Assembly: GCA_963576785.1 (NCBI GenBank)
Contig: OY756140.1
Span: forward strand, 868,001 to 932,000
DNA length: 64,000 bases
DNA from: Chlorophyllum brunneum
Lineage: Eukaryota; Basidiomycota; Agaricomycetes; Agaricales; Agaricaceae
Direction of reading: 5' to 3'
Made by a program: the position numbers and the translations under genes. Under the pieces are notes generated by a model that had not been told where the DNA came from, searched no databases, and saw only the letters and a list, made by a program, of their open reading frames with translations. How positions within the stretch are numbered: the first letter of the stretch is position 1; every line of letters begins with the position of its first letter. Below are positions 19,947 through 59,664 of the stretch, in pieces.

Positions 19947-20205
19947 GGTACACGGATGGGCGGTAGCGAAGGCAGTATTTGTCCTTGTGGACGTGTCGGA
20001 TGACTTTACGTTCAATAACAACAAATAAAGCTTGGTCACTCACCTTCGTCTTTGACGGTGACCGTGTCTGGAGACCGTCTGAACAATCCGCCATTCCTAG
20101 TTGCCAGTCCCGTCCAGCATAGCGTTAACCTTATCAAACATTCACGAGAATTTGGACGGCTTTAAAAACCCGGTATCCGCTCATTAGATTTTGAAACTCA
20201 CCTTG

Positions 20206-35335: not shown

Positions 35336-38300
35336 ATGGCTGGCCCGTATGCCTTTGTCACCCTCGTTTCTTCAGATGCATACCTTCCAGGCGCTTTAGC
35401 CCAAGCAGCTGCTTTGCGGGACGCCCATCCACTTCCCCCCCTCTTCCCAGAGGTCACCTTCCAGACCATCTGCCTTGTGACGCCAGAAACCATTGATGTC
35501 GCAACAATCAAGCTCCTCCGGCGGGCCTTCGATTCCGTCATCGGCGTCGAAGTCCTTGAGGCAGAGAGCAGTAGCAACTTGCAGCTTTTGGGTGAGTAGC
35601 TCTCTCTCGTCGTTGTTGCTCTCCATGTGCCTTAGCGTTCCAATCATGATAAACCATTCATCGCACTTGATAAGCTCGTACGAACGCGAAGCCCCCTGGC
35701 ATATATTATCTCTGTATATTCCCAACGTTTCTCTCCTTCTTTCTGACGCGAGCTACCAGGTCGTCCTGACCTCACCACGGTCCTTACCAAATTGCACGTT
35801 TTTCGTTTGACTCAATACTCTAAAATCATCTTCCTCGATGCCGACGTACTCCCAATCCGCCCTCTTTCACACTTGTTCAATATTCCACATGAATTCGCGG
35901 CCGCTCCAGATGTAGGCTGGCCTGATATCTTCAATTCTGGCGTTCTCGTTCTCTCTCCGGGCGAAGACAAGTTCAACCACTTGAATGATCTTCTTCAATC
36001 CAAAGGTTCTTGGGATGGTGGCGACCAGGGTCTTCTTAATGAATGGCGTGCTGGCAACTGGCATAGGCTAAGTTTCACCTACAATACTACCCCAACAGCC
36101 GCATACACGTGTGTCGCCTTCTATCATCCGTTCGTCCTTGTACTCATCTATCGCTAAGGTATGCGCCAGCCTACGAACGCTACGGTTCTCAGATTAATGC
36201 TATTCACTTCATCGGCCCGAACAAACCCTGGAATTCCATCCCTTTCCGTTCCCCCTTTCTCGCAGAGAAAAGGGCCACGTCAGAATCCCAGTCAACCCAA
36301 CAGGCATATGACTATGAGTCCCTTGTGGACCGCTGGTTCGCGGTTTACGACAAGCATTATCGTTCGCAGCCCATCATGCCCCCCTCATTCGAAGTGAAGC
36401 GCTACTCATCCGCCTGGGCCTCATCTAATCCAACCAACCTCGCTGAGATTGATCCAGGGAGACCTTTTGACTTGGAAGATCTTCGAAGGATAGCTACCGA
36501 GGGTATGACAGCTGCAGGCTTTGTGTCTTCACCGTATACTCGGCGGGACGGAGAAGGAGAATATCGTACCCTACCCCTTGAGGGACGATTTGATCTAATG
36601 CGACCAAAGAAGCCGCCAGCTGAGAGTGAAGAGGATTTATCATCGACACAAGTGTCTGTTCTTTCCCCTGAACCTACACTCGAGAAAGACTTTATGGACA
36701 CAGACAAAGATCTGCCTATGACCCCCATGGCTCGGTATCTGGGCCTTCCAGATGATCTCCCACGTTGGCATACCCTACCAACCCCAGGCCCAGAGGAAAT
36801 CCCCCCGAGTCCTAGACTTCTGTTGAGATCTCTTCCTGGCACGCCCACGCCTGCGCCGGACTACTATGCTTCCTCCGCAGGACAAACCAGTGATTCAGAT
36901 AGCTGGCAGACTGCTAAAACCCCTACCAGCCAGGCCAGTCAAGCTCTTTCTCATCTTTTTACGCAGACGCCTCCGCCCCACCGACCCACACCCCACAAAG
37001 AGTCCGTTGGCCGATCCCCCAGTCCACAGCAGCACCATCATCATAGTAACCACAGCTATCACCATGGTCATCACAATCATCATCACGAGAATGAGCATTC
37101 ACACCAGCAAGGCGGTCAGCAACACCCTGGCTCCCCAAGATCCCAAAATCAACAAGGCGGCCCTCCACGTCCTGCTTCTCCTCCCCTTATATCCTGGAAT
37201 CCTGCTGTTGAACCCCCTCCGAGTGATCCCCCACCCCCATCCGCGTTTCCGGCTGACACCTACTTTACGAATGTTTGGGATTCTGCACATAGTCCAGGCT
37301 TTTGGCATGCACCAAAAGGCTCCTCGGGCCATCCTTCAGAATTTTTCCAGGCCCCACCGCCTCCGCGGATACCCGAAGCTCTACGTATACAAGGGCATTA
37401 CCGTAACGTTATTGGAGAGACCGCCATGGATCCTATCCCTCTTCCCGATCCCAGTAAAGTAAAGACAGTCTTTCCCTGGGAAGGTGAACCACGCCGAATG
37501 CCTGGACGCGTTTTCCCTTATTCAGACGCACCGTCACCAACGCGATTCACCAGTCCGGGGGCCCGAATCTCATCGGCAGCACCAAAGACACCAGAAAACA
37601 AACCTTTGAAACAATCTTCTCTATCACCTCTTCCTCGACTCCCCAGTACCTTGAGCTACTCCAATGCCTGGGACATTGACCCAAGCATTCAGAACTATGC
37701 GTCGCGACTTGTGCGAACTTCTCCCCCGGTTTCTGCTCTTGCCTCTGCCTTTGACAATAATTCCTGGAATGGTAATGGTCGAGGCATGGGCTGGGATGAG
37801 AAGGTGGAAGCCAGCAGTCGAGATGGGGACGATGAAGACAACGGAGAAGAGGATCCCGATGCCGACGAGGTCGACAGCGATTATGATAAAAAATCCCGGC
37901 AGCGGTCTCGCAAGGCGTCCATAGCTGAAGATACTCGCCAAGTCCAGAAATTAGTTCAGAAACTGTATCACTCTCAAGGAGTCCAGACTGTCTCAAGAGA
38001 AAAACGAAGCCAGAGCATCCAGGTATCGATTCTCGCGGAAACACCAACCTCGGGTCGAAACCACCGGCCAGGCAAGCGTTCCGTGGCTACCAGCAGCAGT
38101 ACGAGCTCTTTTACTGGTCAAGAGGGTATTCGGACACCAGACCTGTCAGCCAAACCTGGAGTTTCTCCCCCCTCCACCTCCCTCCGAACCCGCTCTACGA
38201 GCAATGGACATCCCTCACTAGGAGAGTCTGTACTTCGCCCCCGCCGCGACTTTATCACGTCGCCTTCATCAGTTCCTCCGCGGCCTCCCACGAAATCCCT

Positions 38301-38688
38301 TGTTTCTCGTTCACCGGTACCTCCCAAAATTCCAATACCTCCTGGGGCAGCAACATCCCAGAGAGTCACGACCCCTCCATACGCTCCACTCCCAAAAGTC
38401 TCTACACCGCCAACTCGTCCTGTTATCCAGACCAACCACCATGCCCCTCACCCAGCTAGGGCACCATCAGTCAGCCAACGCCAAATATCTAATGATTCCT
38501 CAATTGGTTCGCCCCCGTCATCGACAGGACCGGTATCACCCGATGACCAGCCATTCTCTCCTTCTCCGGTTAGGAAGGGTACAAGAGTTTGGGACCCGGC
38601 CCGGGGCATTGAAGTTTTCAAGCGCGGCTCAGAAGAAGTGCTGGCTCGATTCCTTAAGATGGGCTCCTGGGACGAGAACAACCGCTGA
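35336..38688 (+). CDS. Glycogenin (GT8) with long disordered C-terminus
   Basis: Glycogenin self-glucosylates and primes glycogen synthesis. The GT8 catalytic domain spans exons 1-2: MAGPYAFVTLVSSDAYLPGA, then after an intron (about 35592-35760) RPDLTTVLTKLHVFRL, SKIIFLDADVLPIRPL with the Mn-binding DxD (DAD), DIFNSGVLVLSP and WDGGDQGLLNEW. A third exon resumes YAPAYERYG and gives AIHFIGPNKPWN. From about residue 300 onward the protein is several hundred residues of Pro/Ser-rich, disordered sequence with a His-rich run near 37030-37100. The conserved C-terminal patch is RVWDPARGIEVFKRGSEE…FLKMGSWDE, likely the glycogen-synthase-binding module. The gene, called GLGEN in comparative work, is a known neighbour of MAT-A loci in several Agaricomycetes. 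It lies about 2.8 kb from the HD2 gene end. Confidence 0.92.
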
Positions 38689-40145: not shown

Positions 40146-41103
40146 ATGGTAAGGGATTGGGAACTACTCGACACTGTTGATCTCACTAGAACGCACAGGA
40201 TACCTTTGTCAACCTTGCTAAACAAGGCCTCGACGCCTACAATAAGTCTCAACGTACGATCACATCATCCGATTCATTGATCTCCCGAGATAACATTGAA
40301 TACATCTTCGCCAAACGTATCTCCAATAGCCGACGTGAACAAGACTGGGGGACAAGAATACAATTCACCTCACCACTCAGGCCACAGTGGCCCTGATCGC
40401 CCCCAATGTAAGTTGTGATGGTCAATAGGCGAGAGCAATCATTGCTAACAGATTGATCGCGGGTCCTGCACATATGAAGTTGATCATGATGAGGTTGTCA
40501 GGACTGCCGAGAAGTCTGGATCTGGAGATTCGTCTCTCTTTTCTACCGCCCTCGGTTACCTGACCGAGAACAAGGTCTGTCCTAGCTTATCACCTCTTTC
40601 TCCAGGAACAGTCTAATATGATATTCTGCAGAAAGCCCACGAAGAGCCTCTTAATGATGAAGAAGTCACACGTGCTCATGACAAGATCTACAACCTGAAC
40701 GACGTTAACGGCTTGACTTCCAAGCTGCTTGGCAGTGCTGCTGCTCTGGAGGTTTGCACCTCCTCGCGCTCAGAAACTTCGGCACTTCATTTCTTTCTAT
40801 TAGATCCTCAAGAAGTCTACTGGTGGGGGTGGTTCTTCGAGCAGTTACGGTGGGGCAAACAGCCACACTCAACTCATCAGCTTGGCGATGGCCGAAGCGA
40901 CCAAACTGTTTGACAGGACAGAAGGGAAGGCATCTGGTAACAAGCAGGATGCTGTCAACGGTGCTGCTTTGACAGTTATGAAACTTCTTGTCCAGTCCAA
41001 ATTCAGTGGTGCAGGGGCAATTGGAGGCAAGGATTCAGGAGGCCTGAGCGGTCTGTTGAGAATGGTGAGTTTTCTTGCTCTCTTTCTTAAGTTTCTGATG
41101 TGA
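40146..41103 (+). CDS. DUF7721-type hypothetical protein
   Basis: A fungal protein family of unknown function, often annotated only by a DUF; my family naming is from memory. The start codon (40146) is alone in exon 1 and splices to DTFVNLAKQGLDAYNK. Recognisable parts: EVDHDEVVRTAEKSGSG, SSLFSTALGYLTENK, EEPLNDEEVTRAHDKIY, LTSKLLGSAAALE, then across an intron SSYGGANSHTQLISLAMAEA, TKLFDRTEGKASGNKQDAV and NGAALTVMKLLVQSKF. The Gly/Ser linker and repeated helix pattern are typical. It stops at 41103 whether or not a final 27-nt in-frame GT..AG segment is removed. It lies immediately beside the mating-type genes, with no evidence of a mating role. Confidence 0.7.
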
Positions 41104-41447: not shown

Positions 41448-42943
41448 TCAAAGGGTATCGAGGCACTGAAAGCCGAACGCGACAGCTGAACCTCCATATG
41501 CCTCAAAGGCAGTAATGTTAGGGCATATTAAATCCACTTTGGGGGATCGATGGCAGGGTGAACGGGCAAGTTTTCGGGTCTCCAACGTAGGTGAATTAAT
41601 GGGAGTGGCGAGTGTATTCGAGGATGAGCAGCTAGAAATTGAACTGAATGAAGTACAACGGGAGCGTGGTGGTGACGGTTGTGAGGACTTAAGGCGTTTA
41701 GTTGGGCGACAGGGTGGTTCGGGGATTGAAGACCGAATTGAGCTCTGCCCTACCTGTTGATTCCGTACCGAGGCAGGATGTCTGCCTCGGTAGAGGTAAA
41801 CGTAAGTCGGGGAGCGCCATGGTATTGCGGGTTCCTCAGATTCTAGAGAATCACGATGCCGTTTATGACCGTTGCCTCGGTGTAAATGCAGGCGACTAGC
41901 GAATTCGTTTGGAAGGTCGTGATCCGCCGAGTTTTCAGGAAGGCGTTTGCGCTTGGGGCGATCAGGTGGAGGTGATCGCATCCACTGGACTGAAGGGAGC
42001 TGACATTGACCCAATTCCTTCCCTGGGAAGGGGTCGTAGGCACAAGTAGGAGGGTATGGTGCAGGAAACGCATGCCGCGGCGCCGGGAGGTTGAGAGGAT
42101 TGGGCTTTGTTGGTGGGAGGGATGGTAATATTGAGCACCATGAGGCGACCGGAACTTGCAGGGACGGTTCCAAGGGCGTTTCCACAACTGGCCGTTTTTC
42201 GGCTGAATATTTGGCGACGTCGCTTAGCAGATCTGCTAGTGGAAATGGCTCAGATAGTCTGTTTAGGGACTGATCGTGTTTTCGTCTATTGCGGTGGTTT
42301 TGAAACTACAGTGGGGATGAGTGAGAATCAAACTTCTAACCAACCACGCGTACCCAAACTTCAATCTGACGAGGTGCCATACCTGTGCAAACTGCGAGCA
42401 TAGATCGGTCGGAAGCAGATGGGTACGCATTGCGCTTGAAATAAGTCTCTAAGAGTGGGACAGATTCCTAGCAATGGTTTGAGCGTTACGAATTACAACG
42501 GCCGTGATAAAGCTTACTGATTTGAAGGAGGTGCGGGATGTCCTTTCACCATTTAGGCGGCTTTGAGAGTGCCTTGCACAGGCATAACTCGCGGTCTGAT
42601 CCCTCCAAGCTTCCAGTTGCTTTTGAAAAGCAGTGGAAAAGATGCGAGCTACTTTGTCATTGGGCATTCCGGGCATATTTGCGAGTCTGGACAGATGACG
42701 TAGAGAGCATTTGCGACGAAGGTCGGCTTTATCGCAATAAATACGATACAAGGCCTGAGCTAAATCCAGGGGGATACCAGCCTCCAAAAGTTGAGGTTGT
42801 ATATCGGGTACCATTGGTAACTTGAGTATGAGCGAAGAGTTGTCAGTGGTAGGAGGAGGGTCAGCGACACACGAAAAGCCCATTTTCTTGCGGAAGGAGT
42901 CAGTATTATGGAGGATTCGCCGCAGGAGTTGAGTCTTATGCAT
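41448..42943 (-). CDS. HD2 homeodomain mating-type transcription factor (MAT-A)
   Basis: HD2 proteins carry the DNA-binding homeodomain of the HD1/HD2 heterodimer that drives post-mating development. The N-terminal dimerisation/specificity region opens MHKTQLLRRILHNTD (start 42943; a Met 20 codons on is possible) and includes LLEAGIPLDLAQALYRIY. A phase-0 intron after TSFKS (ending about 42473) joins ESVPLLETYFKRNAYPSASD. A second intron is inside helix 3: IEVW joins FQNHRNRRKHD. The result, WFQNHRNRR, is a canonical HD2 recognition helix with Asn51 and Arg53 intact and His at position 52. The C-terminus is Pro/Ser-rich with basic clusters (RPKRKRLP, RPTKRLKS) likely serving as nuclear signals, ending at 41448. 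It is divergent from HD1. Confidence 0.92.
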
Positions 42944-43131
42944 AGTCGGGGGATGAGAATGCGCTGTAGGACCGTTGAGTCTGATACCAGGTATTTACAT
43001 ATATTTGTTCAACAAGCATCAACAACCCTTTCGTACTCCGCATTGTCTTCTCATCATTGTTTGTTCCATGCCCAGAGCCGTCATATGTCTGCTTCTCACC
43101 TCGTTTTACCATTTTTTTCCACTCATTCCTA
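42944..43131. promoter_or_regulatory. Bidirectional promoter between HD2 and HD1
   Basis: Less than 200 bp separate the two mating-type start codons. In known MAT-A loci this interval carries both promoters and can contain the site bound and repressed by the HD1/HD2 dimer. I did not find a clear half-site by eye. Confidence 0.45.
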
Positions 43132-45259
43132 CATGGCGCGCACACTGATCCAAAGATTTGGTGAAGCGGAATCTGCCTTTTTCAAGGCACTAAACTCTGG
43201 AGGGGAAGCGCTGGGCGCCTTCGAAGAGCAATACTGCTTGCTTCGAGAGGATCTCGAACTTGCTTGTAGAGATGGTACTATCGATCCGGACACCGCACAA
43301 CGTGCCTTTGCTGTCTCTTCAAGGATCGCTGATATCGCTGAAAGCTTTCAGCAATTTGACTCTATGTGCAACGAGCTAACCTCTCGCTTTATGGATGATC
43401 TTGACGACATTCTCAAACACCGTGGCAGTCCAGTCCCCAGCATTTCACTCGGACCCTCGTCCACTCGGCGCGACACATCTCTTGCTGCTCAATGGCTGAC
43501 TCAGAATTACCACAATCCCTACCCATCAAGCGCTGTTCGCGACCGAATTTCGCGAAAAGCCAATTGGAATCGCAGGGATGTAGATGGCTGGTTCACTGAG
43601 GCCAGGAAAAGGATAGGATGGAATGAAATTCGAAGGAAATATTGCAACAATAAACGTGCCGAAGTCGTTGAGAAAGCTACTGTTTTCTTTAGGGGCTCCA
43701 GCACACTGTCGGATCCCCTACTAGAATCGGCCCTCGCGCAGATGTCTATGCGTATCCAAGAACTTTTCGTTGATCCCTTCAAGCCGAGCAAGTTGGCCTT
43801 AGCCCTGGATACGGTATATGACGAGCGTGTCGTGACGGGAAGTCGACGGGACACAAGCCATCGTGTGTCAACCCCCCTCATCAACTTTGGTTACCCACTA
43901 ATTGACTACTCACAACGACAGCGACTCCGTACTCTCGTTCAGTGACTCCCTTATATTGGGAATCTCCTATGATTGGTCATCCATCACCAATCTCGCGTTC
44001 TGTCTCTCCAGTCCGTCGTAAACAGAAGCGCCAGAGGTCCGATACGGACACTGAACACGAATGTCACGTGAAACGAGCAAAGTTCGCCTTTTCCAATCTG
44101 CCTACTTACTTTCACTAATTTGCTTTCAGGCACCTAAACAAAGCGGCTGAAAACCTCCAAACTCAGCTCCCGTCGCCCCCATCATCTCAAACAGATCTGT
44201 CCGAGCCAAATACGGCCCTTACTGCAGAGCTACCAGAATCAATTATTAGACCCGGACGTTCTCTATCACCAGCGCTGTTGCCCGACCCCAAGAGAAGACG
44301 GTTATCGCACTCTGAAATCCATGACCGCCCGAGGTATCCACCAAATGGTCCCCGAGCCACTCGCTTGCAGACTGTATCTGCTCCTATCGCTTCCCAAACC
44401 CCATCGAAATCCGGTGATTCCTCTCAGTTGGTTTCGAAAAGACCAGCACCGAGAGTGTCTAATGCCTCCGAGCTAGAGCCTCATTCCGTTGTCCTACCCT
44501 CTGTGGCCCAGAGTAGCTGGGAAATACCATTATCGCATCCAACCTCTGTGACAGACATTGCCAGTGTTCCCGTACTCTTAGAGCATGGTTTACTATCTGA
44601 TGGCGAGATCCCACAATTCTCATTTGAATTTCCGGACCCCGTTACCTGTGACCTGCCTGCTCTTGTGCAGGATGTCGATTTGGCGCTGTCTAATACAACG
44701 GATTATTCAGGCATGCAAAGGTTTTATGAAAGTGGTGTGTAACAGTTACGAGCGTTTTTTTCTCCGAGCCTGACTGCTTTGCTGCACCAGTTTTACTAGG
44801 AAGCATTTCGCACTCAGTACCCTTGGCTGAGAACGTTAACGTACCCTCACTATCCAGCTCATTCGGCGATTCTTTAAGCAGCGAGCAATTGCTGTCATTC
44901 CTTTCTTTTCCATTCGATCAGAACCCAGCCACAACTTCACCGGTTCAAATCAATGCGCTCCCAAACGTCACCGAGGTCGATATCGACTACAGCCCCTTCT
45001 TCGGTTTCGACGGAGCCGCACCTCATGTTGACGACGGATTCTTCACGAATATTTTTGAAAACGTCAATGAGCCCATAGTCCCTTCACCAGCGGATATTGA
45101 GAGGGCCAAACAAATGGTGCAGCTTGAGGCATTGAAAAAACACCAGAGTCATCTCCAGGAGCGCATACAATCCCTGTACGTTCGTTTAGCTTTGTTTCTT
45201 GCATTACTCTGAAAGTGTGATTTAGCCAAAGTCAGATCGCTCACCGACCTTTGACATAA
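43132..45259 (+). CDS. HD1 homeodomain mating-type transcription factor (MAT-A)
   Basis: HD1 proteins supply dimerisation, nuclear localisation and activation functions to the HD1/HD2 complex. From the ATG at 43132 (43087 is an alternative), the allele-specific N-terminus is MARTLIQRFGEAESAFFKAL. The homeodomain spans about 43480-43660: SLAAQWLTQNYHNPYPSSAV, RKANWNRRDVDGWF and WFTEARKRIGW, with Glu at position 51 instead of the usual Asn. A 59-nt intron (gtgtgt…acag, ending at 43911) removes an apparent stop and yields TPYSRSVTPLYWES, then a basic stretch SPVRRKQKRQRS. Further exons are Pro/Ser-rich, including DPKRRRL and acidic patches (EVDIDYSPFFGFDG). A last 50-nt intron gives a stop at 45259; reading through it would stop at 45212. 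No damage to the gene was seen. Confidence 0.9.
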
Positions 45260-45902
45260 ATATACATACCCCCCCAGGCCTTATGATGCTTGTTCGCTTT
45301 CTTGCTGCCGCTCTTGCTTCGCGTATATCATCCATAGTATCCTATTGTTATTTACATTTATCTGCTGTTAGATTACACTGACCCTAAGCTGTGTACTATT
45401 GTGTTAGATGTGCTAGTACGTAATTAGACAATATCCATTCCGATTGAGTCTATTTCCGCGATAAGGACCTTGCTACTCACCAGATTCGTAGTAATGTACT
45501 TTCCATGTTAGATGTAAACCCCATCTTGTGGACATTTCCGGTACCTGAGTCTGGATCCTATAAAGTAGAATTCGTACGCAGAGGGGGTCATTACATGATG
45601 AGGACCGTGATAAAGCGTGACAACCTACACAAATTGGAACTCCTCCTTTTGGGGTTTTTTTAGAGGGAAAAATAAACAGAAGAACCCTGTCAGTTGAGAC
45701 TCCGGATATTTCCTCTGTCCCCGATTTTCTAAATATATTCCAGGATAGCGTAGTTCAGGTTTTAGCATGTGTTTGACCTATATCACATACTGAGTCAAAC
45801 CTTGTGGCCACATGGTTTTTGGGTCATTCCGGGGTCAATCTTAGTGGAACTTAGTTGTAATTGATGTTCTGACATATATTTCGGACACTCTAGATGTTAT
45901 TG
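45260..45902. other. HD1 3' flank; transition to transposon island
   Basis: About 640 bp. The first part is probably HD1 3' UTR. From roughly 45540 the sequence becomes AT-richer. No coding motif or RNA gene recognised. Confidence 0.4.
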
Positions 45903-45966
45903 TTTTATTTATTTATTTTTAAATCAACAATTTATATAGCAGTGCTTGAATGTAGCCTGTGTGTGT
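45903..45966 (-). mobile_element. Very short 5'-truncated LINE tail
   Basis: A degenerate poly-T run (tttatttatttattttt) is followed from 45919 by about 47 bp matching the sequence that follows the poly-T of the LINE at 48291 (both begin ttaaatcaacaatttatata). The differences I can count are transitions. This is the 3' extremity of the same LINE family in the same orientation. I could not find a target duplication. Confidence 0.6.
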
Positions 45967-46332
45967 TACAGCTCATATGCCTGTTTTAGGATGTAATTCT
46001 ACCTTAGCTCAATTTTTTAACTTGTATGGAGGATCACTTACTAATTGTGCTTATCTTTGTTCTAGACCTATCAATCAACCTTTCCTATATTTGTTTCTGT
46101 CCATTTTTGTCCATCTTGTTTCCTTTTACATTCTGATTCCTTTCTACCTCTATTACTCCATACTTCAGTATTACCTGTTCTACCTATCATGTCATGTTCC
46201 TGTTACTGATGTTATATAATGTTTCTCTTATCTTTTCCTGTCTAGTTACTCCATCATATTGTTAGTTGACCTTCTGATACTTTTCTACTACTAGTATATA
46301 CAGTAAATAGTCTTTTGTACACTTGTACTTGG
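45967..46332 (+). repeat. Probable left part of a gypsy LTR/leader split by the copia insertion
   Basis: AT- and pyrimidine-rich, non-coding sequence with no host motif. It is interrupted at 46332 by the copia element and resumes at 55335, just before the gypsy gag-like region. It therefore plausibly belongs to the gypsy 5' LTR or leader. No second LTR copy is present to prove it, and the left boundary is a guess. A 86-codon frame here has no motif. Confidence 0.35.
46328..46332. repeat. Copia target-site duplication, left copy (CTTGG)
   Basis: Five bases directly before the left LTR, identical to the five directly after the right LTR. This fixes the element ends and shows the insertion is not rearranged. 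Confidence 0.9.
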
Positions 46333-46891
46333 TGTTGAAGTTTCGGACATATTCTAGAAATAGACTATGAAGTCATTATGATAATAATAGACTGATCCAT
46401 TGCTTTCTAGTAACTTCATTCCATAGTAAACTTCCTATGAGTTGCTCTGCATATGATGAGAGTCATAAGTACTTGATAGATTATTCTACATAGTACCAAT
46501 GACTAGATACTACGTTCTGCAATACTCCGCAGGCACTATGCCACAGTTAAAGGGAGTCCATGCAATGCTAGTATTTTATGTAGTATGACTTGCCTATATT
46601 ACAATATGTATACAAACCCCATGTAGCAGACCTAGTTCTGCATCTTGTTCAATCGAACAACTTCTTCATCATTGCCTATCTCTTTGAGTACAACACCTCC
46701 ATTGATTTAATCGACTTTGACCTCTACTCCTCTGACATTAACCGCTTCATCAATAATATCTGTCTATCCAAATTACCTTTCTACAGGTATCAGATAGAAG
46801 CTTATTATCTCGGTGAGTAGACCCTACGTTCTCTCCCACTGCGTTTACTGCTGCCCCTAGCAAACAACTTATTATGGTCATTTCCTCAACA
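46333..46891 (+). repeat. Copia left (5') LTR
   Basis: Begins TGTTGAAG, ends TCAACA. A TATA-like string (atatgtatacaaac) sits where the right LTR has a long atatatatata, so promoter strength may differ. A 76-codon open frame in the LTR has a counterpart in the right LTR and is not a gene. Confidence 0.93.
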
Positions 46892-46906
46892 GGTTATGGG
46901 CCCCGG
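46892..46906 (+). other. Putative primer-binding site, half-tRNA-iMet type
   Basis: Immediately after the left LTR comes GGTTATGGGCCCCGG. The complement of the initiator tRNA-Met anticodon-loop region reads close to GGTTATGAGCCC. Drosophila copia is known to prime from an internally cleaved half of initiator tRNA-Met at this region. The match has changes consistent with decay, so this is an inference. Confidence 0.55.
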
Positions 46907-47051
46907 TAGCCTTACTGATGGTTAAACCATTATCATCCCCTCTAAACCAAGATAGGATGATAGGCCTTTACCTGACAGAGTTATCCTTGTATTTGATCAT
47001 TGCTGATACGAGAATTTTCTTCTAGAAAGAAATACACTCGACAAAGATATT

Positions 47052-48259
47052 ATGTCTACCAATAATATCATCGCTGGTTTACCTAAGCTCAATGGGCCTA
47101 AGAACTATGTGTTCTGGTCTAGAAGGCTTCAGGATGCCCTAACCCTCATTTCTGTCACTGGTTCTGACCAGTCCGGATGGACTGTGACAAACCAGGATCT
47201 CTCTCCTGCAAATCCTGCCGCTTTAATGGAGGAAGATAGAAGGAGAGAACAATTGAGAGGTCAGGCATTGGCTGTCATTAATGGTACCTTACCTGATTCC
47301 CTATTACTCCATGGGCATGACGCTCCTGGATTCTTCTGGGATGACTTGAAAACCCGCTTTGGGACACCTCCTGCTGCAGTGTATTCAATTCTCCAAAGAA
47401 TGCTGTGAAAGTGCATTTCAGGGAATCAAGATCCAGCAATGGATCTAGCTGAATTGAGAACAATGGCTTCTCAATTAGAAACAGCTAAAGTAAGATTGCC
47501 AGAAGTTCTTGGCACGATGATCGCTTTAAACGCATTACTACCTGATTGGAATGCCGTGACACAAACAATATTAGCGAATAATCATGATGTTGTAGATATG
47601 ACCTGGGAGGTAGTTCAGTAGGCTATAAATGCTGAATGGTCAAGACATGAAGGATCCAGACCCTCCATGTCTAACCAACAAGCTTCATTTGCCACCATCG
47701 CTAACTACCAAGCTCGCCCTCAGGGCAACTTGCCCAGGACTTGCCCAGGACCACCCTGGAACCACTTCCACCCTGGAGGCGATACCAGGGCCCAGCCTGT
47801 GAGAGGTCCTCGCCACCCTGCCAATCCGAGTGGGTAGCCCCCTCAGCCTTCTCCTCCTACTCCTACCTGGATTAACATCCAGAAGAAGAAGAAGAAGCCC
47901 AAGAAGCGCCAGGGTAAACCCCAAGCCCATATGGCAGAAGCCATGGCAGGCTTTGCCGCTGCCACCGAACCAGCGGTCCATCACTTCACAGGTCTGGGGA
48001 TGACCCCCTTCGACCTGATGAGGCGCATGGACGCACCTCGACCTATTCCCACTCCCGCTCCTCCAACCACTCGTGTACTAGTGAGTGAGAGACCAAAGCC
48101 TCTTACTTGGGTTAATCCCAAGAAGGTCCAGCAGGCATGAGAGAATACTTGTGCTGAGCTCGAGAAAAAGGTATGTGCTGAAGCACGAAACTTATGTTTT
48201 ACTGCCCTTCTCGAGAACTCACTGCGGATTCAACAGGTGACCACCTGGCGCAACTGCAT
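47052..48259 (+). pseudogene. Copia gag, broken by stops
   Basis: Begins MSTNNIIAGLPKLNGPKNY and contains the copia gag motif YVFWSRRLQDAL and DDLKTRFGTPP. In-frame stops follow at about 47406 and 47619 and another near 47836, with the frame resuming each time (MDLAELRTMASQLETAKV; TWINIQKKKKK). A basic RNA-binding-like tract follows. It is cut by the LINE insertion at 48272. It resembles UBN2/copia gag; no CCHC knuckle was seen. Confidence 0.82.
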
Positions 48260-48271
48260 CACTGGTCCTTT
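48259..48271. repeat. LINE target-site duplication, left copy
   Basis: Thirteen bases, TCACTGGTCCTTT, found again at 49910-49922. The last T residues merge with the poly-T tract, so the exact boundary is ambiguous by a few bases. Confidence 0.85.
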
Positions 48272-49909
48272 TTTTTTTTTTTTTTTTTTTTTAAATCAAC
48301 AATTTATATAGCGGTGCTCGAACGCAGTCCGTGTGTACATACATACAAAGGCAGAATGTACAGAATGTTCGGAGAAGGGAAAGTAAACTATAAGTAGACT
48401 AGCCTCACGAGACTCGTTGACATCTAGCACGTATACTAGAGAGATGTTTGGTACCTACGATGTTCAGCAGGAAAAAGGGAAAGAAAGGAAATCGGAGAGA
48501 GAGAGAGTGAGAGAGAGAAATTGATAGAAAAGAAACTATCTATTCGCAATCACAAGGGGGAACATCAAATGGTACATAGCATGTGGGTGGATATTTACCC
48601 GGGCACCACAGGAGAGATGAAAGTTGAATGAAAACTATATAAAATAGTAGATGAGCGAGGAATGGGAAGATAGAAAAATGAATTAGAAATCCATAACCGG
48701 GAGAGCAAAAGGAAAAAGGGAAAAGAAAAGAAATCTACGCAGGCACAGACCCAAACCTCCTTTGGACTTGATGACGATGTAACAGTGGAATTGAGCCGGC
48801 ATGGATTCGAGGGTGGTCAGGTTCCGGGGGGAAGCTGAATGCGGAGGGGTTGCGATGCAGGAAATTAACAAATGTTTTTATCGTGTCGACGCCGAAGTGA
48901 TGATCGAAGTGGTTGCATCAATATAGGATGTGTGACCGCATTTGCACCATTTGACTGTTGTAGTGGTGGCACGAAAGTTCCTCATTAGGAAAGAATTGTA
49001 GTCGATATTCTCCAATCGGGGCGTGGCATAAGATGGCACGACAAGCTCTTGTGAAGAGCTGGGGCTGGTATCCGCATTCTCATATCCATGGACCAGACTT
49101 GATGTGCGACGGTAAGGCAGAGGCCCCATTCGCTTGCACCGGGAGGTGGAGGAAGGAGCTACTGCTGTAAGTCTTGAACCCGAACATGGCTTGCCATGTG
49201 TGAATGGTGCATTCGGCGGACTTCTTGCATAGGTAGTCGATCGAGTTTGGCACTCGGTAGTTTCGACCCCGGTTAGGCCAGGCGACCATTTGGATCCAGT
49301 CGTGAGTGGCTTTTTGTATCCCATATTTGCATTTCGATGGCGTGTGATAAAAAGAAAGGCAGTGTCGGTCTGACTTGCTGAACCAAGCCAAGAGCGCTTT
49401 CGATGTGAGGATGGACTGTCACTGGCAGAAGTGTAGCGAACAGTTAAGTAGAAGCCGGGAGGCCACAAGGGAGTCGGTAAACATGTGGATGTACTCAACC
49501 TGGTCGTATTCAGCAGTAGCGAGCACCTTGGTGATACCTAAATACTGCGCTACCAGTTCTGTGTCCATTGATGTGGTCCCTCCGAGCCTCTTCATAATAG
49601 AGCTCCCGCCGTCAAGATGCCGAATGGTGGCTGCCACCGTAAACTGGCTGGCAAGCGGATTGGGATTGGGGTGGACCGAGCCGTCCGTACCAATCGTGAT
49701 GGATTTTGCGTCCGTCATCGTGTTTGTCGTTACATTGTCCCAAAGTGTCTTCGAGAGGTGAGGATTGTCCCGGTTGAATTCTATAAAAGATACATTAGTA
49801 GAGAAACGGTCAAGTAACCTACGTCTGGGCCAGAGAGATTTAGAAACGGAATTGAAATGTTCTATATACCAAGTCTTGGGGGTGGGGTGCGAAAAGTCCA
49901 TCACACGCG
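48272..49909 (-). mobile_element. 5'-truncated LINE with RNase H domain
   Basis: A non-LTR retrotransposon copy inserted in reverse orientation: its poly-A tail appears as 24 T (48269-48292) on the plus strand. Reading the minus strand from about 49900 gives the end of ORF2 with an RNase H domain: GTDGSV (first Asp), DTELVAQYLGI (Glu) and FTDSLVAS (second Asp). One stop follows (NCSLHFCQ then stop), the frame continuing to CLSFYHTPSKCK, the equivalent of the WVPSHxG strand. The last kilobase is apparently untranslated and includes a GA-rich microsatellite (48491-48520). Endonuclease and RT are absent. The insertion interrupts copia between gag and protease. Confidence 0.88.
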
Positions 49910-49922
49910 TCACTGGTCCTTT
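49910..49922. repeat. LINE target-site duplication, right copy
   Basis: Thirteen bases identical to 48259-48271; copia sequence resumes directly after. A long duplication with a poly-A tail is the signature of target-primed reverse transcription. Confidence 0.85.
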
Positions 49923-52900
49923 GCCCATGCAAATGGCGAAGAAATGTGCTCTTGATCGTTATGATCGATGGATGCACGAGGTCTCTCATCCCTGCGCCCA
50001 ACAAGGACAATCGGTGACACCTCCCGGTGCACCTTCAGTTCCTTTTGGTCACCCCCCAGGTTGCACCTGTAAGGGACACATGAGGGTGAGTAAATGGTTC
50101 CTAAAGCATAGTAACCCCGATATTAACGCGACTTGCGTCCGATTCTCCTTCCTCTTACCCCTTGGTTCACCATATACCTTATTGGTTTCTCCCAAATTTG
50201 GGATGAAAATTAATTTGGCTATGCACCATGTGGTAAAGATCCCAAGCATGGACTCCATCGCCCGGGGTGACTCGCTTGAACCTGGAGAGGTTCAGCCATT
50301 CTACCTTCCTCCTCGAGAGGAAATAGTAGCTCTGGCTGTAAGGACCTATGAAGAGGAATTTCCTCCTCTTCCTAAGGCCTCCCCTCCAATGGAGCGCTTC
50401 CAGAGTAAGAAATACTCCCTTACTCAGAAGAACAAGACTGCTGACAGGCGACCTGCCACACTTACAGTGTTGGTAGATGAGGCCTTCAAACAGCTTGAGA
50501 GCAAGAAGGAGGTCGATGACCTCATGGCACTAGCTCAGGATGTCGCTTACAACATCCGCGACCCCAGGAATACTGCGAACATTGTAGGACCCTCTTCTGG
50601 GCCTCTCCCGAAGTCTCCAAATTCCGAACCATTTGCTTCGGCACCTCAATCTGAGGTGTCTCTCGGACTTTCATCAACCAACTATGAGAGCGACTACAAG
50701 AAGAAGGGAGGAGCTGGGTATATGATCAATTCAATCTCAGATACTCTTACTAACCCTGATACACAGTCCTGTCACCAATATGCCAACCGGCCGTCTTCAC
50801 AAGAAGAAGGGCAAGGGCAAGGGGAAGGGACGTCGGGGGCCGAGCATGTAATTATGCTATCGGGATCTTTAGGATCCTATAATAATGTTGTTATGAGCGA
50901 ATGGATAAATAAGAAGTGTTTTAACACTTCTCAACTTTTTTGTTACTCCACGCGCATGCCTAATCAGTTTTTAAGAGTACTGGATCAAATTAGATCTCGA
51001 TTGCTAAGCAATGATCAAATTATAACGCCACTAGAAGAATATAGTGACGTATGGTTATTAGACTCAGGGGTATCATGTCATTATACCCCTTATGCAGAAG
51101 ACTTCATCAACTTCAAAGAACTCGAAGTTTCAATCCCAATTAAAACTGTAGGAGCACAAGGCCCCTACCTTAATGCAGTTGGTCTTGGTGCAGTTATGCT
51201 TAAGCATAGAGTCTATAATGGGAAGACTGACAGCGTTCAACCCATGCAGATATTAATATATCCAGTCTTCCTTCTAAAAGGAACCTCTGAATGACTAATG
51301 TCAGTGGGACAGTTATGCCAGGATGGCAAAACTATTAGAACAGATGCCAACGAATCAGTAGTTGTTGATAGCAAAGGAAATGCTATTCTTTAAGCATATC
51401 CTTTAGCAAGTTGTAATACTACTTTATATTTTGTTAATACCAAAATTATACACTCGGAACAAGCAGCTATGACTGTGGATCCAATCGTTGGCTACAAAGT
51501 TGTACATGCAAGATTAGGACATCCCTCTAATTGTATCCTCAACCATTTTGAGAAAAATATGATTGGGTTTATTCTGGTGCAGATTTCCGAGCAAAAACCA
51601 ATCTGTGACAGTTGTGCCAAGGGAAAAATGCACCAGAAACCCTTTAGAGAGAACCCTATACACACAAAGTGTCCATTCGAAAGAATTTACTTGGATTTAG
51701 TTAAACTTCCAATTTTTTCTTACCATAAATGTAAATGAGTCATGACCATAATGGACGACTTTTCCTCTCATGGATGGATTTGCTTCCTCCATAAGAAATT
51801 AGAAGTAGTAGAAGAAATGAAAAATTTCATTGCCTTAATTCAGACTCAATATAAGACTAAATTAAAATATCTCTGCACTGATAGAGGAGGAGAGTATGCA
51901 ACTGACGAGTTGCAATCTCATTTGCGCTCATTAGGGATTATACATGAGACTAGTGCACTGCACATACACCAACAAAATGGTCGAGCGGAACGCTTGAATC
52001 GAACTCTAATGGATAAAGCAGAAGCCATGCAGCATCATGCTTGTATTCCTGATGGTTGGTGGGCATTTTCTATAGATCATGCAATACATATCTATAATAA
52101 AACACCGGTATCACAGCTCATGTGGAAAACACCTTATAAAGTGTTGAATCAGAAGATTCCAGATATCTCCAAGAAGAGAGTCTTTGGCTGTAGTGCTTAT
52201 GTCTTTCTTCCAAAAGAGATAAGAGACAATAAACTGACAGCGAAGTCAGAACTCATGATTTTCCTTGGTTGGACATCAGACAGGAAAAATTATCGTTTCA
52301 TGAGGCATCTAAATGGAAATGTAATCTATACATCTCCAACAGCTGTATTCAGCAAAGAACACTTCCCTAAATGTATTGGGAAGAAGCGAGAAGAACGGAT
52401 GAACCAACCATCATCTTCTACTTCTCAAAGTACACCTTCAGAAGTTATTGTCTTCCATGCTCCAGATCCATCTACTGGTTTACCTTTTGATAAACCACCA
52501 AGCCCTATTCCCCAAACTTCTCCCGAAAGTTCTCCAGAAGATAGGACTTATAGATCTGTTCATGGACGAATTCCAACTCCTTTCCCTGAACCTAAAAAGA
52601 ATAAAGGAAAGGGAAAAGCACCGAATATTGATACCAATGTTCAGGAGGAGTGGGATGGTATTATGCAAAACATTCTCTTTCCACCAAGAGAAGCACAAAT
52701 ACCAGAAGACGATGACAGTGATGGATTATCATATGCTGATCCACCCAATCACCCTGAAGGTCCGAACCATCCGCCTTCTCAAAGAGATGATCCAGATGTA
52801 CAACCATTCATACCTAATACCCCTGTTGAAGATGATCGGGATGCTGGTCCTTCTGTACCACGAGGTCACTTGGATCAAATACCGGTTCCTGAAATACCTC

Positions 52901-54723
52901 AGAGACCGCAAAGAACCAGAAAAGTACCTGAACGTCCAGGAAACTTCTATGGTTCTACAAAGCATCCGACCAAAATACTCCAGGACTATGAGATGTTCCA
53001 ACCTCCTAAGTCGAAGTTAACAAGTTCTACGAGTAGACTTGTTAGACAAATTCGATCAGAGGCTTCCAAACCTGGAATAATCGATAAATGTTCTCAGCAT
53101 GAAGCTTCTACATTAGAAGACTTATGCAGAGAAGGAGGAGTGGGGATGATCGATTATCTGTGTGCTCAAAAAGTCGAATCACCATTAGTTCCTATTTCTT
53201 TCAAGGATCTAAATCGACTGCCATCAGAAGAGAAATCTAAATGGTGGAAAGCATGCTTAGAAGAGTTAAATTCACTCAAAGCAAGACATGTTTATGATTT
53301 AGCTAAACTTCTGCCTGAAAGAAAAGCTGTCAAAAATAGATGGGTCTTTACACCCAAATCAGATGGTTGATACTGTGCTTGACTAGTAGCAAAAGGATTC
53401 TCTCAGATAGAGGGAATCAATTACAATGAACTATTTTCACCAGTAGTCCGTTATGAGACAGCACAACTCATATTTGCAGTCACTGCCCTCAACAATTGGG
53501 AGATGCTTAGTTTAGATGTTAAAACTGCTTATTTCTATGGAAAACTGGATGAAGAACTCTATATAGAACTTCCAGAAGGTTTCAATACAGGTCGTGGTAA
53601 TTTGGTTTGGAAATTAAACTGAGCCATTTATGGACTAAAGCAATGCGGACGACAATGGTGGAAGGAATTGACTAAGTCAATGACCAACCTAGGATTTGTC
53701 CGATCCAAACTAGATGCTGGAGTCTATTATTACTATGACCCTGAAACCAAAGAGCTTATTATAGCTCTGGTCTATGTAGATGACTCAATGTTTGTCAGAA
53801 TTAGAGGCTCTAGACTTCTACATGAGAAACGAGCACTCTTTATGAAGAAATGGGAATGCCGAGACCTTGGTCCAACCAAAGAGTTTCTTGGCATGAAAAT
53901 TTCGCGAAATCCTATAAACCAATCAATTACCCTAGACCAAATGGATTATCTAGGAAAAATCCTTGATCGATTTAAAGTAATTGGACAAGAAGAAATTCCA
54001 TTACCAAATGGATTTATCTTCGAATCCAATACAGGAAAAGTGACACCTGACTTCATAAAGAGGTATCAACAGTTAGTAGGATTAGTCATGTATCTGATGA
54101 TAGGCAGTCGGCCTGACATAGCTTTCGCTACTGTCAAATTATCACAACATATGACCAATCCCACTAAAGTGCATTATAATGCAGTCCTACATTTGCTAAA
54201 GTATCTTAATGCTACTCGCAAATATAGAATTACCTATAATGGAAGTTCTATGCAAGGCCTTAATGCCTTTTCCGACTCTGATTGGGCTGGTAATCCAATT
54301 AGTCATAAATCTGTAACTGGATATTTCTGTTTATTAGCCAGCGGAGCTATTGCTTGGTTAAGTAGGAAACAGAAAACTGTTGCATTATCTTCCACTAAAG
54401 CTGAGTATATGGCTTTGTCAGATTGCAGTTGACAACTTGTTTGGACTGTCAATTTGTTGGAAGATATTGGTATCCAATCGTTAGCCCCTTATCTCTTCGG
54501 TGATAATAAGGGTTCAATATTTTGGGCCAAAAATCCAGTAACAGAAAAACAATCAAAACATGTCGACGTCAAATACCATTACATTCGTGATTTGGTAGAA
54601 GACAGAAAAATTGAAATATTCTCTGTGAAAGGCACTGAAAATCCTGCCGATATTCTCACAAAGAATTTAGACAAAATTAAATTCAATCTATTCCAACCTC
54701 GTCTTGGCTTGACGTTTGAGTGA
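49923..54723 (+). pseudogene. Copia pol: protease, integrase, RT, RNase H, with in-frame stops
   Basis: Domains in order: protease WLLDSGVSCHYTP (about 51050); GAG-pre-integrase zinc region HARLGHPSNCILNHFE with CDSCAKGKMHQKPF (51500-51640); integrase core VMTIMDDFSSHGW, TDRGGEYATDEL and HQQNGRAERLNRTL (51740-52010); a Pro-rich linker; RT with LSLDVKTAYFYG (first Asp), YGLKQ and YVDDSM (53500-53790); RNase H FSDSDWAG, STKAEYMALS and LTKNLDK to 54723. Stops break the frame, including near 51292, 51391, 51736, 53368, 53380, 53620 and 54430. Several stand where a conserved Arg is expected (KLN-stop-AIYGLKQ, SDCS-stop-QLVW), suggesting CGA to TGA changes. The RT catalytic residues survive. Confidence 0.93.
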
Positions 54724-54745
54724 TTAAAACTCTACATCAATACAG

Positions 54746-54757
54746 AGCAAGGAGGAG
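54746..54757 (+). other. Copia polypurine tract
   Basis: AG-rich run (agcaaggaggag) ending exactly at the right LTR. This is the expected primer for plus-strand synthesis. Confidence 0.8.
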
Positions 54758-55329
54758 TGTTGAAGTTTCGGACATATTCTAGAAATAGACTATGAAGTCA
54801 TTATGATAATAATAGACTGATCCGTTACTTTCTAGTAACTTCATTCTGTAGTAAACTTCCTATGAGTTGCTCTGCATATGATGAGAGTCATAAGTACTTG
54901 ATAGATTATTCTACATAGTACCAATGACTAGATACTATGTTCCATAGTACTCTGCAGGCACTATGCCACAGTTAAAGGAAGTCATAAGGAACAATCCATG
55001 CAATGCTAGTATTTTATGTAGTATGACTCGCCTATGTTACAATATATATATAAACCCCATGTAGCAGACCTAGTTCTGCATCTTGTTCAATCGAACAATT
55101 TCTTCATCATTGCCTATCTCTTTGAGTACAATACCTCTATCGATTTAATCAACTTTGACCTCTACTCCTCTGACATTAACCACTTCATCAATAATATCTG
55201 TCTATCCGAATTACCTTTCTACAGGTATCAGATAGAAGCTTATTATCTCGGTGAGTAGACCCTACGTTCTCTCCCACTGCATTTACTGCTACCCCTAGCA
55301 AACAACTCGTTACAGTCATTTCCTCAACA
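54758..55329 (+). repeat. Copia right (3') LTR
   Basis: Aligns end to end with 46333-46891 apart from a 13-bp segment (ataaggaacaatc) present only here. Carries a long TATA run (tatatatataaa at about 55043-55053). Confidence 0.93.
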
Positions 55330-55334
55330 CTTGG
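55330..55334. repeat. Copia target-site duplication, right copy (CTTGG)
   Basis: Five bases identical to those at 46328-46332, immediately after the right LTR. Confidence 0.9.
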
Positions 55335-55618
55335 TAGTCTGATTATCAACTTAGTCTCTGGCTATCTTGTTCTACCACTCCCTACTATACAAGCAAATCC
55401 TTCTGCTCATCCACTACTTACATCCAACTTCTGTCCTAGTAACAAGAGATTATATAAGTAAAGACCACTATGGTACCTGGAGGGGTACAGCACACAAGTT
55501 GAAGCCAAGGTCCTCCATTCATCTGGTCTACCATTCTATAAGGACCATACTTCTGCCTTTAGTATTGTATTTAACAGTATAATCAGACTCAGACCTCTAG
55601 TATTGTCTTTTCCTTCTT
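55335..55618 (+). repeat. Probable right part of the gypsy LTR/leader
   Basis: Continues the sequence interrupted at 46332. Contains a TATA box (gattatataagtaaag, about 55449) and a possible LTR end ttaaca at about 55577. Assigned to gypsy because a gypsy gag-like frame starts right after. No second LTR copy in the window to confirm. Confidence 0.4.
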
Positions 55619-57136
55619 ATGACTACTTGTCTCACCTATTCTTCTATACCCACAGAACCTACTATGCCAAGTACTACTATACAACCTTCCACTATTACCC
55701 ATAACTGCATTCCTGTCCAACCACCTATCACTGTTGATGAACCAGCTGCAGAAGGTGGTGATAACAACTTGTCTGAAGATAGTGATAAACTACCTATGGA
55801 CTCCACTTGTGCTATGGCCCATACTTTATCTCATCTGGCCAAAACTTTGGATACCTAAGAATGCTCCAGTTCTTTAGCCCCTGACAATTATTGAAACATC
55901 AAGGCTTATGAACCAGATACTTTTGATGGCTTAGACTCTCTCAAACTAAAGGATTGGGTCTTCCAATATATTCTCTATTTTGCTGCCAATCCTTACCAGT
56001 TTGAAGCCAACAATTCCAAAGTTACTTTTGCTATTACCTACATGTCCAGTACTACTCTCTGCCTTTTCCAAACCTACTTTGGTAGCAAGGACATTACTTT
56101 TAGTGATAATTCTTTGCTTAACAACTGAAACTCTTTTGTTGAAGAGCTTACTTCTTGCTTTGGGTCTACTGACCCAGCTGGAAAAGCTCACAATAACTTG
56201 GAACACCTTGTCATAAAGTACAACCAACACATCATGACTTATGAACTTGAATTCAACCATCTTGCAGCTATAGCAAACTGGGACTATACTTATCTCTGCC
56301 ACTATTTCTATGAAGGCTTACCTTCTTGAATCAAGGATGTTATAACCATGATAATTGAGGATAGACCCAAGGATTTGAAGTTGATGAAGAAATTGGCCAA
56401 TAGGATTGACCAACATTACTGGGAGCATTAGTGAGAGAAATCCCACTTGGAGAGCTCCTCATAGCCAAAGAAATATATTGCCTCACCTTTCCCTTCAACA
56501 CCTCACAATTCCAACAGTGGCAAAACTACCCCTTTGAATAAACCTTCTCCTAAACCCTCTGGTAACCATTCAGCCTCATCCAGCAGATCCTCTAGTTTTA
56601 GAATCCCTAAATCTCTCTTGTCCAAACAGCTTGCTATAGATGGCAAACTCATGCCTTAGGAATGATAGCATCACTTTGACCAAGGCTTATGCATCTATTG
56701 TACTGGTGATCACAAACTAGCCAACTGGTTGAAGAAAGTTGCTACTACAAATAAGACTGGAACCTCATATATACCATCAACTCCTAGACCAAAAGAATGT
56801 CATGTTATGGCCCCTAGGGACCCTGTTTCTTCAGCCTCTGCTATAGAGTCAAAAAAAATAGAAAGTGGTCCTCAGGATTCTGCACAGGCTAAGAACTGCA
56901 TTGAACTCATCTATACTATAGAAAATTGTCAACTCAATATATTTGCTTTTTTAGACTCCAATGCTTTTCATACCTCAGTTTCCTTGCTGCTCTTCTCATT
57001 GCCCAGCTTAGACATCTCAATAGACAGCTTTTTTCTAGCTCTATTAGATAGTGGCTCAACTCATTGTTTTATTAACTCATCTCTCATCTATTTCCATTCT
57101 ATCCCAATAACTTTTATCTCTCCTATTGAACTTTGA
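55619..57136 (+). pseudogene. Gypsy gag and protease, broken
   Basis: Opens MTTCLTYSSIPTEP; after stops the retroviral-type gag motif appears (YEPDTFDGLDSLKLKDWV, then FAANPYQFE and TYFGSKDITF). A zinc-knuckle remnant CIYCTGDHKLANW lies near 56695. The protease active site is ALLDSGSTHCFINSSL near 57045. At least six in-frame stops. Non-functional. Confidence 0.8.
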
Positions 57137-57539
57137 CTGTTGACAGTACTTCAAATACATACATAACCAAATCTATAACCCTACCTCTGTCCTTTACTAC
57201 TAGTAAATCTATAACTTTTGACTTCTACATTAGTCAGCTAGATCCTTCTTGCTCTGTGGTTCTTGGATATAACTGGCTTACCTACTACAATCTGTTGATT
57301 GACTAGGTTTTGGGCAGTATTACTTTCCATCCACAATATCTCAACTCTCCAGCTTCTGTCCCTTCCACAAGTGTTACTATATTAGCCTTGAACATAGTTC
57401 AGTCCCTTAGTCATCATTATCCATCTCTCACATTAGCCTGATTAGTGTGGCCATATTTGTATAAACTGCCCACCAGCCTAGTTTATTTATATTCACTATC
57501 AATACCAAGTCTAACCCTTTGAAGGTTGTATCTACATAG

Positions 57540-58480
57540 TTATCCAACCTTATTGACTTGTCAAACATTCTCTCTCAATACCATGAGTTTGCAGATGTCT
57601 TTAGCAAGTCTCAAGCAGATATACTACTACCACATCATCCATTTAACTTGAGAATTAACCTAGAGGATGGTATGGTACTGCCTATTGGTGTTATCTATTC
57701 CCTCTCTCAGGTTGAACTACAAGCTTTTCAAGAATTCATTGACAAGAATCTATCCAATAGCTTTATTTGTCCATCTACCTCTCTGCATAGTACTCCAGTC
57801 CTTTTTGTCAAGAAAAAGGATGGTTCTCTATGTTTCTGTGTAGACTTTTGTGACCTTAACAAGATCTTCAAGAAGAATTGCTATCCTTTATCTCTTATTT
57901 CTGATTTGCTCAATACTCTTTACAAAGCTCATATCTATACCAAGATTGACCTACAATATACCTACCATCTTGTCCACATTGCTGAAGATGATGAATGGAA
58001 GACAGCTTTTTGGATGTACTATAGTTTGTTTGAATGGATGGTTATGCCATTTGGACTGACAAATGTACCTGCTACTTTCCAATGTTTCATAAATAACATC
58101 TTCAAAGATATGCTTGACATATGTGTTGTTATTTACTTGGACAATATTCTAATCTACCTGGATGATAACTCTAAACATGAGGAGTATGTCCAAGAAGTCC
58201 TCTGCAAGCTTTACAAACACAGTCTGTATGCTCAGGCTGATAAGTGTAAATTCCACTTGGATTTGGTTGAGTATCTGGAGTATATTCTTTTACCTGACAG
58301 TCTTATAATGTCCAGAGAAAAGGTCAAAATAATTCAAGATTGGCCTGAACCAAAGAAGATAAAGGATATTCAGTCCTTCTTGGATTTTGCTAATTTCTAT
58401 TGATATTTCATTCATGGCTACTCTGATATTGTTGTTCCTCTCACCCACCTTACTCATAAGGGTATGTATAGTTTGGAATT
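57540..58480 (+). pseudogene. Gypsy reverse transcriptase, catalytic Asp changed
   Basis: A long open stretch with gypsy RT blocks: EFADVFSKSQADILLPHHP, STPVLFVKKKDGSLCFCVD, YTKIDLQYTYHLVHI (first catalytic Asp present) and MPFGLTNVPATFQ. In the YxDD box the sequence is YLDNILIY, so the second Asp is Asn (GAT to AAT). The VDFRDLN block reads VDFCDLN. The frame stops after IQSFLDFANFY at about 58403. Inactive. Confidence 0.88.
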
Positions 58481-58499
58481 TTGATGATGGCTACCATAA

Positions 58500-59640: not shown

Positions 59641-59664
59641 TCTATAGTACAGAGGATATACACT

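Follow-up and report, generated by a model that had tools for sequence, protein, structure and literature searches.

A homeodomain mating-type (matA) locus in Chlorophyllum brunneum, with a transposon island between HD1 and a probable MIP gene

The stretch of DNA analyzed here, referred to as the window, comprises 64,000 nucleotides of the agaric Chlorophyllum brunneum (contig OY756140.1, here C2, positions 868001-932000, in a 38.9-Mb genome of 14 contigs), and contains a pair of homeodomain genes, HD2 and HD1, that in all likelihood constitute the homeodomain (HD, or matA) mating-type locus of this mushroom. Positions are given in window numbering; where this numbering is carried past 64000 on C2, positions are called window-equivalent. 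HD2 on the minus strand and HD1 on the plus strand are divergent and together span 41448-45259, exactly the outer limits given in a preliminary description of the region, which had also placed the two genes less than 200 bp apart; their start codons are in fact separated by 189 bp. The pair is laid out as follows:

41448..42943, minus strand: HD2-class homeodomain gene, 465 aa (PF00046, homologs, splice model)
42943-42518, 42467-42354, 42305-41448, minus strand: HD2 exons, with the ATG at 42943 and the stop codon ending at 41448
42517-42468, 42353-42306, minus strand: HD2 introns, the second dividing W|F of WFQNHRNRR
42944..43132, no strand: spacer between the two ATGs, 189 bp, presumed to be a shared promoter region
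43133..45259, plus strand: HD1-class (TALE-like) homeodomain gene, 634 aa (PF05920, Mating_N, homologs P0001-P0005)
43133-43862, 43922-44081, 44130-44734, 44800-45175, 45226-45259, plus strand: HD1 exons, with the ATG at 43133 and TAA at 45257-45259
43863-43921, 44082-44129, 44735-44799, 45176-45225, plus strand: HD1 introns

Splice sites were deduced from the open frames and from homologs; all six introns start with GT, end with AG and are 48-65 bp long, and the spliced frames are open over 465 aa (HD2) and 634 aa (HD1). The three introns proposed earlier do exist, but their positions had to be shifted by 3-10 bp and three further introns in HD1 had been overlooked. For HD2, the alignment to homolog P0006 starts at 42940, which favors the ATG at 42943 over that at 42883. 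An HD1 model without the last intron (635 aa) was dropped, as five of five homologs carry LExQI there, which the protein matches (as LQSQI) only once that intron is removed; the Pfam and homolog scoring of HD1 used this earlier model, which differs only in the last residues.

Both spliced proteins contain a homeodomain, and so pass the profile check proposed with the preliminary description, and the recognition motifs named there can be read in them. When HD2 is compared with the Pfam Homeodomain profile (PF00046) it scores 60.1 bits (E 1.8e-16, cut-off 22.9), with the domain at residues 134-189 including WFQNHRNRR, while HD1 matches Homeobox_KN (PF05920) at residues 121-160 with 43.6 bits (E 2.6e-11, cut-off 24) and carries WFTEARKRIGW at residues 153-163. 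The first HD1 exon also gives a Mating_N match of 25.4 bits, the only one found in the 38.9-Mb genome at E<=1. At E<=1e-3, HD2 has 94 homologs (6726 candidates scored), the nearest being a Tricholoma protein with 33% identity, and an HD2 of Agaricus bisporus ranks fourth, also at 33%. WFQNHR is present in 92 of these 94, being absent from the best match, P0006, and from P0094, and mean identity in blocks of 20 residues is 0.55-0.62 over the homeodomain and 0.09-0.42 elsewhere. HD1 has five homologs at the same threshold (from 7996 scored candidates sharing most words with it): a pair of Macrolepiota fuliginosa proteins (41% and 37%), single ones of Leucocoprinus leucothites (39%) and Leucoagaricus (32%), and one further protein (37%). 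These HD1 relatives point to a fungus that is probably of the Agaricaceae, while the Tricholoma match of HD2 does nothing to narrow down the family. WFTEARKRIGW is found in four of the five, and the alignment of the fifth, P0005, does not include that region. Those homologs of the pair that have a source name are all mushroom proteins, and several are named mating-type proteins, including 'Mating-type protein beta1-1' of Leucoagaricus.

Leucine-rich dimerization regions had been expected at both N-termini. Both are indeed modeled as long helices, but leucine enrichment fails for HD1 (10/105 residues, 9.5%, vs 57/634, 9.0%, overall) and is slight for HD2 (17/133, 12.8%, vs 46/465, 9.9%). The model of HD2 exon 1 (142 aa, built with an alignment to 18 of the 94 homologs) has a mean predicted local distance difference test score (pLDDT) of 80.7 and a predicted template modeling score (pTM) of 0.58, with long helices at 59-88 and 95-135; that of HD1 exon 1 (243 aa, aligned to four of the five homologs) has a mean pLDDT of 73.2 and a pTM of 0.40, with helices at 5-22, 24-46 and 52-98 followed by the homeodomain helices. 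A Foldseek search with the HD1 model returned the TALE homeodomains PKNOX1, MEIS1 and Exd (probability near 1, E>0.1) together with yeast MATalpha2.

The genes on either side of the pair bear on its identity and are, from left to right:

20166..23997, plus strand: RPB2 (RNA polymerase II subunit 2), a housekeeping gene (PF04563, PF00562, PF04560)
35774..38688, plus strand: glycogenin-like glycosyltransferase gene (GLGEN; PF01501, 38.8 bits at C2:903774-904100, that is, window 35774-36100)
40453..41070 (outer limits approximate), plus strand: probable beta-flanking gene (beta-fg), with several introns and convergent with HD2 (DUF7721, 79.3 bits)
C2:946497-948025 (open frame from 946443), minus strand: Peptidase_M3 gene and probable MIP, about 33 kb past HD1 and beyond the end of the window

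The DUF7721 score was obtained on exon pieces joined by eye, and the only match to this family found in the genome is at window 40632-40754; its place, its several introns and the DUF7721 domain, which we take beta-flanking proteins to carry, make it the probable beta-fg. The M3 gene is on the strand opposite to HD1 and is the probable MIP by position and strand; the remaining M3 matches in the genome (three of six) are on contig C6. The frame at 36067-38688, downstream of the glycogenin domain, gave no Pfam match and would belong to the GLGEN gene. Of 7983 matches to the RPB2 exon, the named ones near the top of the 120 listed are from various mushrooms. The left flank also holds SURF1, a fructosamine kinase, an FMN oxidoreductase, a beta-lactamase-like protein, an ABC1 kinase and an I/LWEQ protein. 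The resulting order, DUF7721 - HD2 - HD1 - Peptidase_M3 with glycogenin nearby, is the one published for agaricomycetes. In published loci, mip1, HD1/HD2 and beta-fg make up the matA order (PMC3140503, PMC8305134), glycogenin is among the conserved neighbors (PMC4938666, PMC8970355), and A. bisporus ARP23, H97 and JB137-S8 all have MIP and beta-fg on the flanks of the locus (PMC6778795).

When the profiles, the homologs named as mating-type proteins, the conserved motifs, the structure models and the flanking gene order are taken together, we have very little doubt that this region is the HD (matA) mating-type locus of an agaricomycete with one HD1/HD2 pair, as the preliminary description had recognized from its architecture. 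This degree of confidence covers identity as an HD locus only, which is shared by the two alternatives on its role considered below. Several observations pull the other way. The MIP candidate is about 33 kb from HD1 rather than adjacent to it; Mating_N scores 19.9 bits on the whole HD1 protein, under the cut-off of 21.4, and exceeds this only on the exon; Foldseek gave no match to the HD1 exon 1 model at E<=0.001; the labels beta-fg and MIP follow from position and strand; and the evidence is one haplotype of one genome, read as sequence alone. We nevertheless regard the locus as an ordinary, well-formed matA whose arrangement is already well known; new here are the models of both genes, the set of genes that flank them, the failure of our searches to find a second pair, and the transposon island that separates HD1 from MIP.

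By analogy with its family, the gene pair is most likely the means by which this mushroom distinguishes a compatible mate from self. HD1 and HD2 of one haplotype would not pair together; after fusion of haploid mycelia with different alleles, the HD1 of one would pair with the HD2 of the other via their N-terminal helices. HD1 would then carry the dimer into the nucleus, perhaps by means of basic stretches like KRQR...KRAK, which were picked out by eye, and the WFQNHR helix of HD2 would supply most of the DNA contact, turning on the dikaryotic program.

It is conceivable, if unlikely, that the pair descends from an HD locus but has ceased to determine mating type, as might be the case if the species were homothallic or asexual. 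One genome is the evidence base, and such losses do occur, since the pheromone-receptor (PR) locus of A. bisporus is described as having lost its mating-type role (PMC8305134). Here, however, no decay is visible: both frames stay open over their full length (465 aa and 634 aa), the recognition motifs are preserved, and the pair has close to the expected number of CpG (219 observed, 237 expected).

Still less probable, to the point of being a long shot, is that this pair belongs to a set of HD subloci, with the deciding one elsewhere. Some agarics are reported to have HD subloci far apart (PMC3140503), and remnants of two pairs are described in A. bisporus (PMC8305134). Our genome searches, which score the best candidates only and whose negatives are not proof of absence, found no second HD pair, with three of the eight Homeodomain matches (on C1 and C5) left unread. 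Against a second sublocus, the Mating_N match is single, and the second Homeobox_KN match, on C6, has WMIN in place of the WF of HD1 and no Mating_N match. The 99 HD homologs, when used as tblastn queries over C2:858001-952000, gave nothing besides the pair at E<=1e-3, and the first 948 bp of HD1 have no match elsewhere in the genome. Seven Homeodomain matches other than HD2 were found, four on C2 and three on C1 and C5. The four on C2, at C2:612493 and around C2:1.26 Mb, were considered as extra HD2 genes because two of them contain a stop codon, as a homeodomain intron would produce, and were set aside by eye, since their motifs (WFQNKR, WFQNQR, WFRNLR) look like those of ordinary homeobox factors. 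Three of these matches, with WFQNKR, WFQNQR and WFRNLR, lie on one strand within about 1.1 kb (C2:1260699-1261781) and are perhaps one gene with three homeodomains. That two unrelated non-mating homeobox genes are divergent here by chance has next to no probability, for although homeobox genes are common transcription factors, as the seven further matches attest, the homologs of this pair include named mating-type proteins and its flanks are those of matA.

All 20 STE3 matches in the genome fall on C10 (near 1.45 and 1.56 Mb) or C1, with none on the HD contig. Such a layout is consistent with tetrapolarity, or with a bipolar species in which PR no longer has its role, the situation in A. bisporus. 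Three pheromone precursor matches were found, at C10:1565335 (inside the STE3 cluster), on C5 and on C2. The last of these (C2:3244729-3244860, 25.6 bits, E 0.00134) is about 2.3 Mb from the HD pair and far from the receptors on C10.

Comparison of the HD1 proteins across species, a small stand-in for the population data that the preliminary description called for, suggests that their N-termini fall into two old classes. Over its first 105 residues the C. brunneum protein is 46% identical to P0002 (47/103), 22% to P0001 (21/94) and 25% to P0003, while P0001 and P0003 are 54% identical to each other; the C-terminal part is closest to P0001 (42%). Quartets were made of four HD1 sequences, excluding P0004, whose N-terminus is mostly missing, and P0005, which starts after the homeodomain. 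For the N-terminus (92 columns) both alternative trees are rejected by the approximately unbiased (AU) test (AU <1e-5) and the inner branch is 1.16; the homeodomain (78 columns) favors the same tree with the alternatives not rejected (AU 0.06), and the C-terminal part (383 columns) is unresolved (AU 0.30-0.77, inner branch 0.095). The C-terminal quartet does not contradict the N-terminal tree and merely lacks its long inner branch. Judged from the sequences, the two classes fit trans-species alleles under balancing selection, which have been reported for Trichaptum (PMC8970355), but old paralogs, such as the a and b pairs of A. bisporus, would look the same and may explain them equally well.

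To the right of HD1, between it and the probable MIP gene, lies the less usual part of the locus:

45260..64000, continuing to window-equivalent 78442, no strand: left part of a transposon island (RVT_2, SH3_retrovirus and RVT_1 matches, repeats, CpG depletion)

The island contains Copia-type (RVT_2, SH3_retrovirus) and Gypsy-type (reverse transcriptase, RNase H, integrase, chromodomain) pieces. It also has an RVT_1 frame at 57540-58403 and a LINE-like frame, the latter with an endonuclease match (25.5) under the cut-off of 27.4. A Copia-type element at 46332-55329 has direct repeats (46332-46891 and 54757-55329) with 92.8% identity, between which lie RVT_2 and SH3_retrovirus, with rve only under the cut-off. 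At window-equivalent 65251-71693 there is a Gypsy element whose pol frame is open over 1015 aa and includes a chromodomain; its 295-bp direct repeats are 99.0% identical, suggesting a recent insertion beside the mating locus. An inverted repeat of 982 bp with 100% identity (C2:932271-933252 and 941039-942020; window-equivalent 64271-65252 and 73039-74020) has arms about 8 kb apart with the same 124-aa frame in each, and represents either a recent duplication, gene conversion or an assembly matter.

Across the island 659 CpG are observed vs 1475 expected; for 78443-84000 the figures are 323 and 344.6, as near to parity as in the HD pair. Two runs are wholly free of CpG, one of 4302 bp (55308-59610; 143 expected, 35-40% GC in 1-kb bins) around the RVT_1 frame and one of 3327 bp (window-equivalent 74518-77845), a pattern consistent with transposons having been heavily mutated at CpG sites. 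DNA_methylase matches are present on C2, C3 and C7. CpG loss is not confined to the mating locus: among 39 other matches scored (463 candidates), the three related copies that were retrieved together with 1.5-kb flanks, on C7, C10 and C11, are also nearly free of CpG (5-10 vs about 192-210 expected). No HD relics were detected in the island by tblastn with the 99 homologs (E<=1e-3), nor HD or MIP relics by blastn and tblastn with the genes themselves (E<=1e-2). We offer only tentatively, as a possibility more doubtful than not, that the 33-kb island may mark an old recombination-suppressed stratum of the locus in which the CpG of older elements has been fully erased, with the HD1 specificity domain keeping allelic classes that predate the compared genera.

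When set beside known systems, the locus is close in plan to the MAT (HD) locus of A. bisporus, where H97 and var. burnettii JB137-S8 are described as having the same order, beta-fg - HD2 - HD1 - mip1, with mip1 on the strand opposite to HD1 (PMC8305134). The proteins are of similar size (627 aa for HD1 and 464 aa for HD2 in the a pair of H97, vs 634 and 465 here), and helical N-termini are common to the A. bisporus proteins and, as modeled, to this pair (PMC8305134). A. bisporus differs in that beta-fg is present there in two copies, along with portions of two HD pairs (PMC8305134), whereas one DUF7721 match and one pair were found here, and in H97 mip1 begins a few hundred base pairs from HD1 (HD1 to 897100, mip1 from 897420; PMC8305134), compared with about 33 kb in C. 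brunneum. Among the homologs, the HD1 proteins of M. fuliginosa (P0001) and L. leucothites (P0002) are 41% and 39% identical to ours over 98% of the length and have an identical WFTEARKRIGW, yet depart from it unequally at the N-terminus (22% vs 46%, as given above); among the literature matches for HD loci of Macrolepiota, Leucocoprinus and Leucoagaricus, the 10 of 27 listed include no mating-locus study. The island itself has precedent in published islands and insertions at the A. bisporus and Pleurotus ostreatus loci. In A. bisporus var. burnettii a 35-kb transposon island is situated at MAT between a mip1 footprint and the b pair (PMC8305134), rather than between HD1 and MIP as here, and the H97 locus also has transposon insertions (PMC10051438). 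The matA locus of the P. ostreatus gfalt haplotype A29 is likewise enlarged, to 73 kb, with a five-gene insertion that includes a transposase, although its HD1 and HD2 are duplicated (PMC13108863) where the pair here is single. The locus in C. brunneum stands beside those of A. bisporus var. burnettii and P. ostreatus A29 as one with a large block of mobile elements within matA, a feature relevant to the way in which recombination ceases near mating-type genes.

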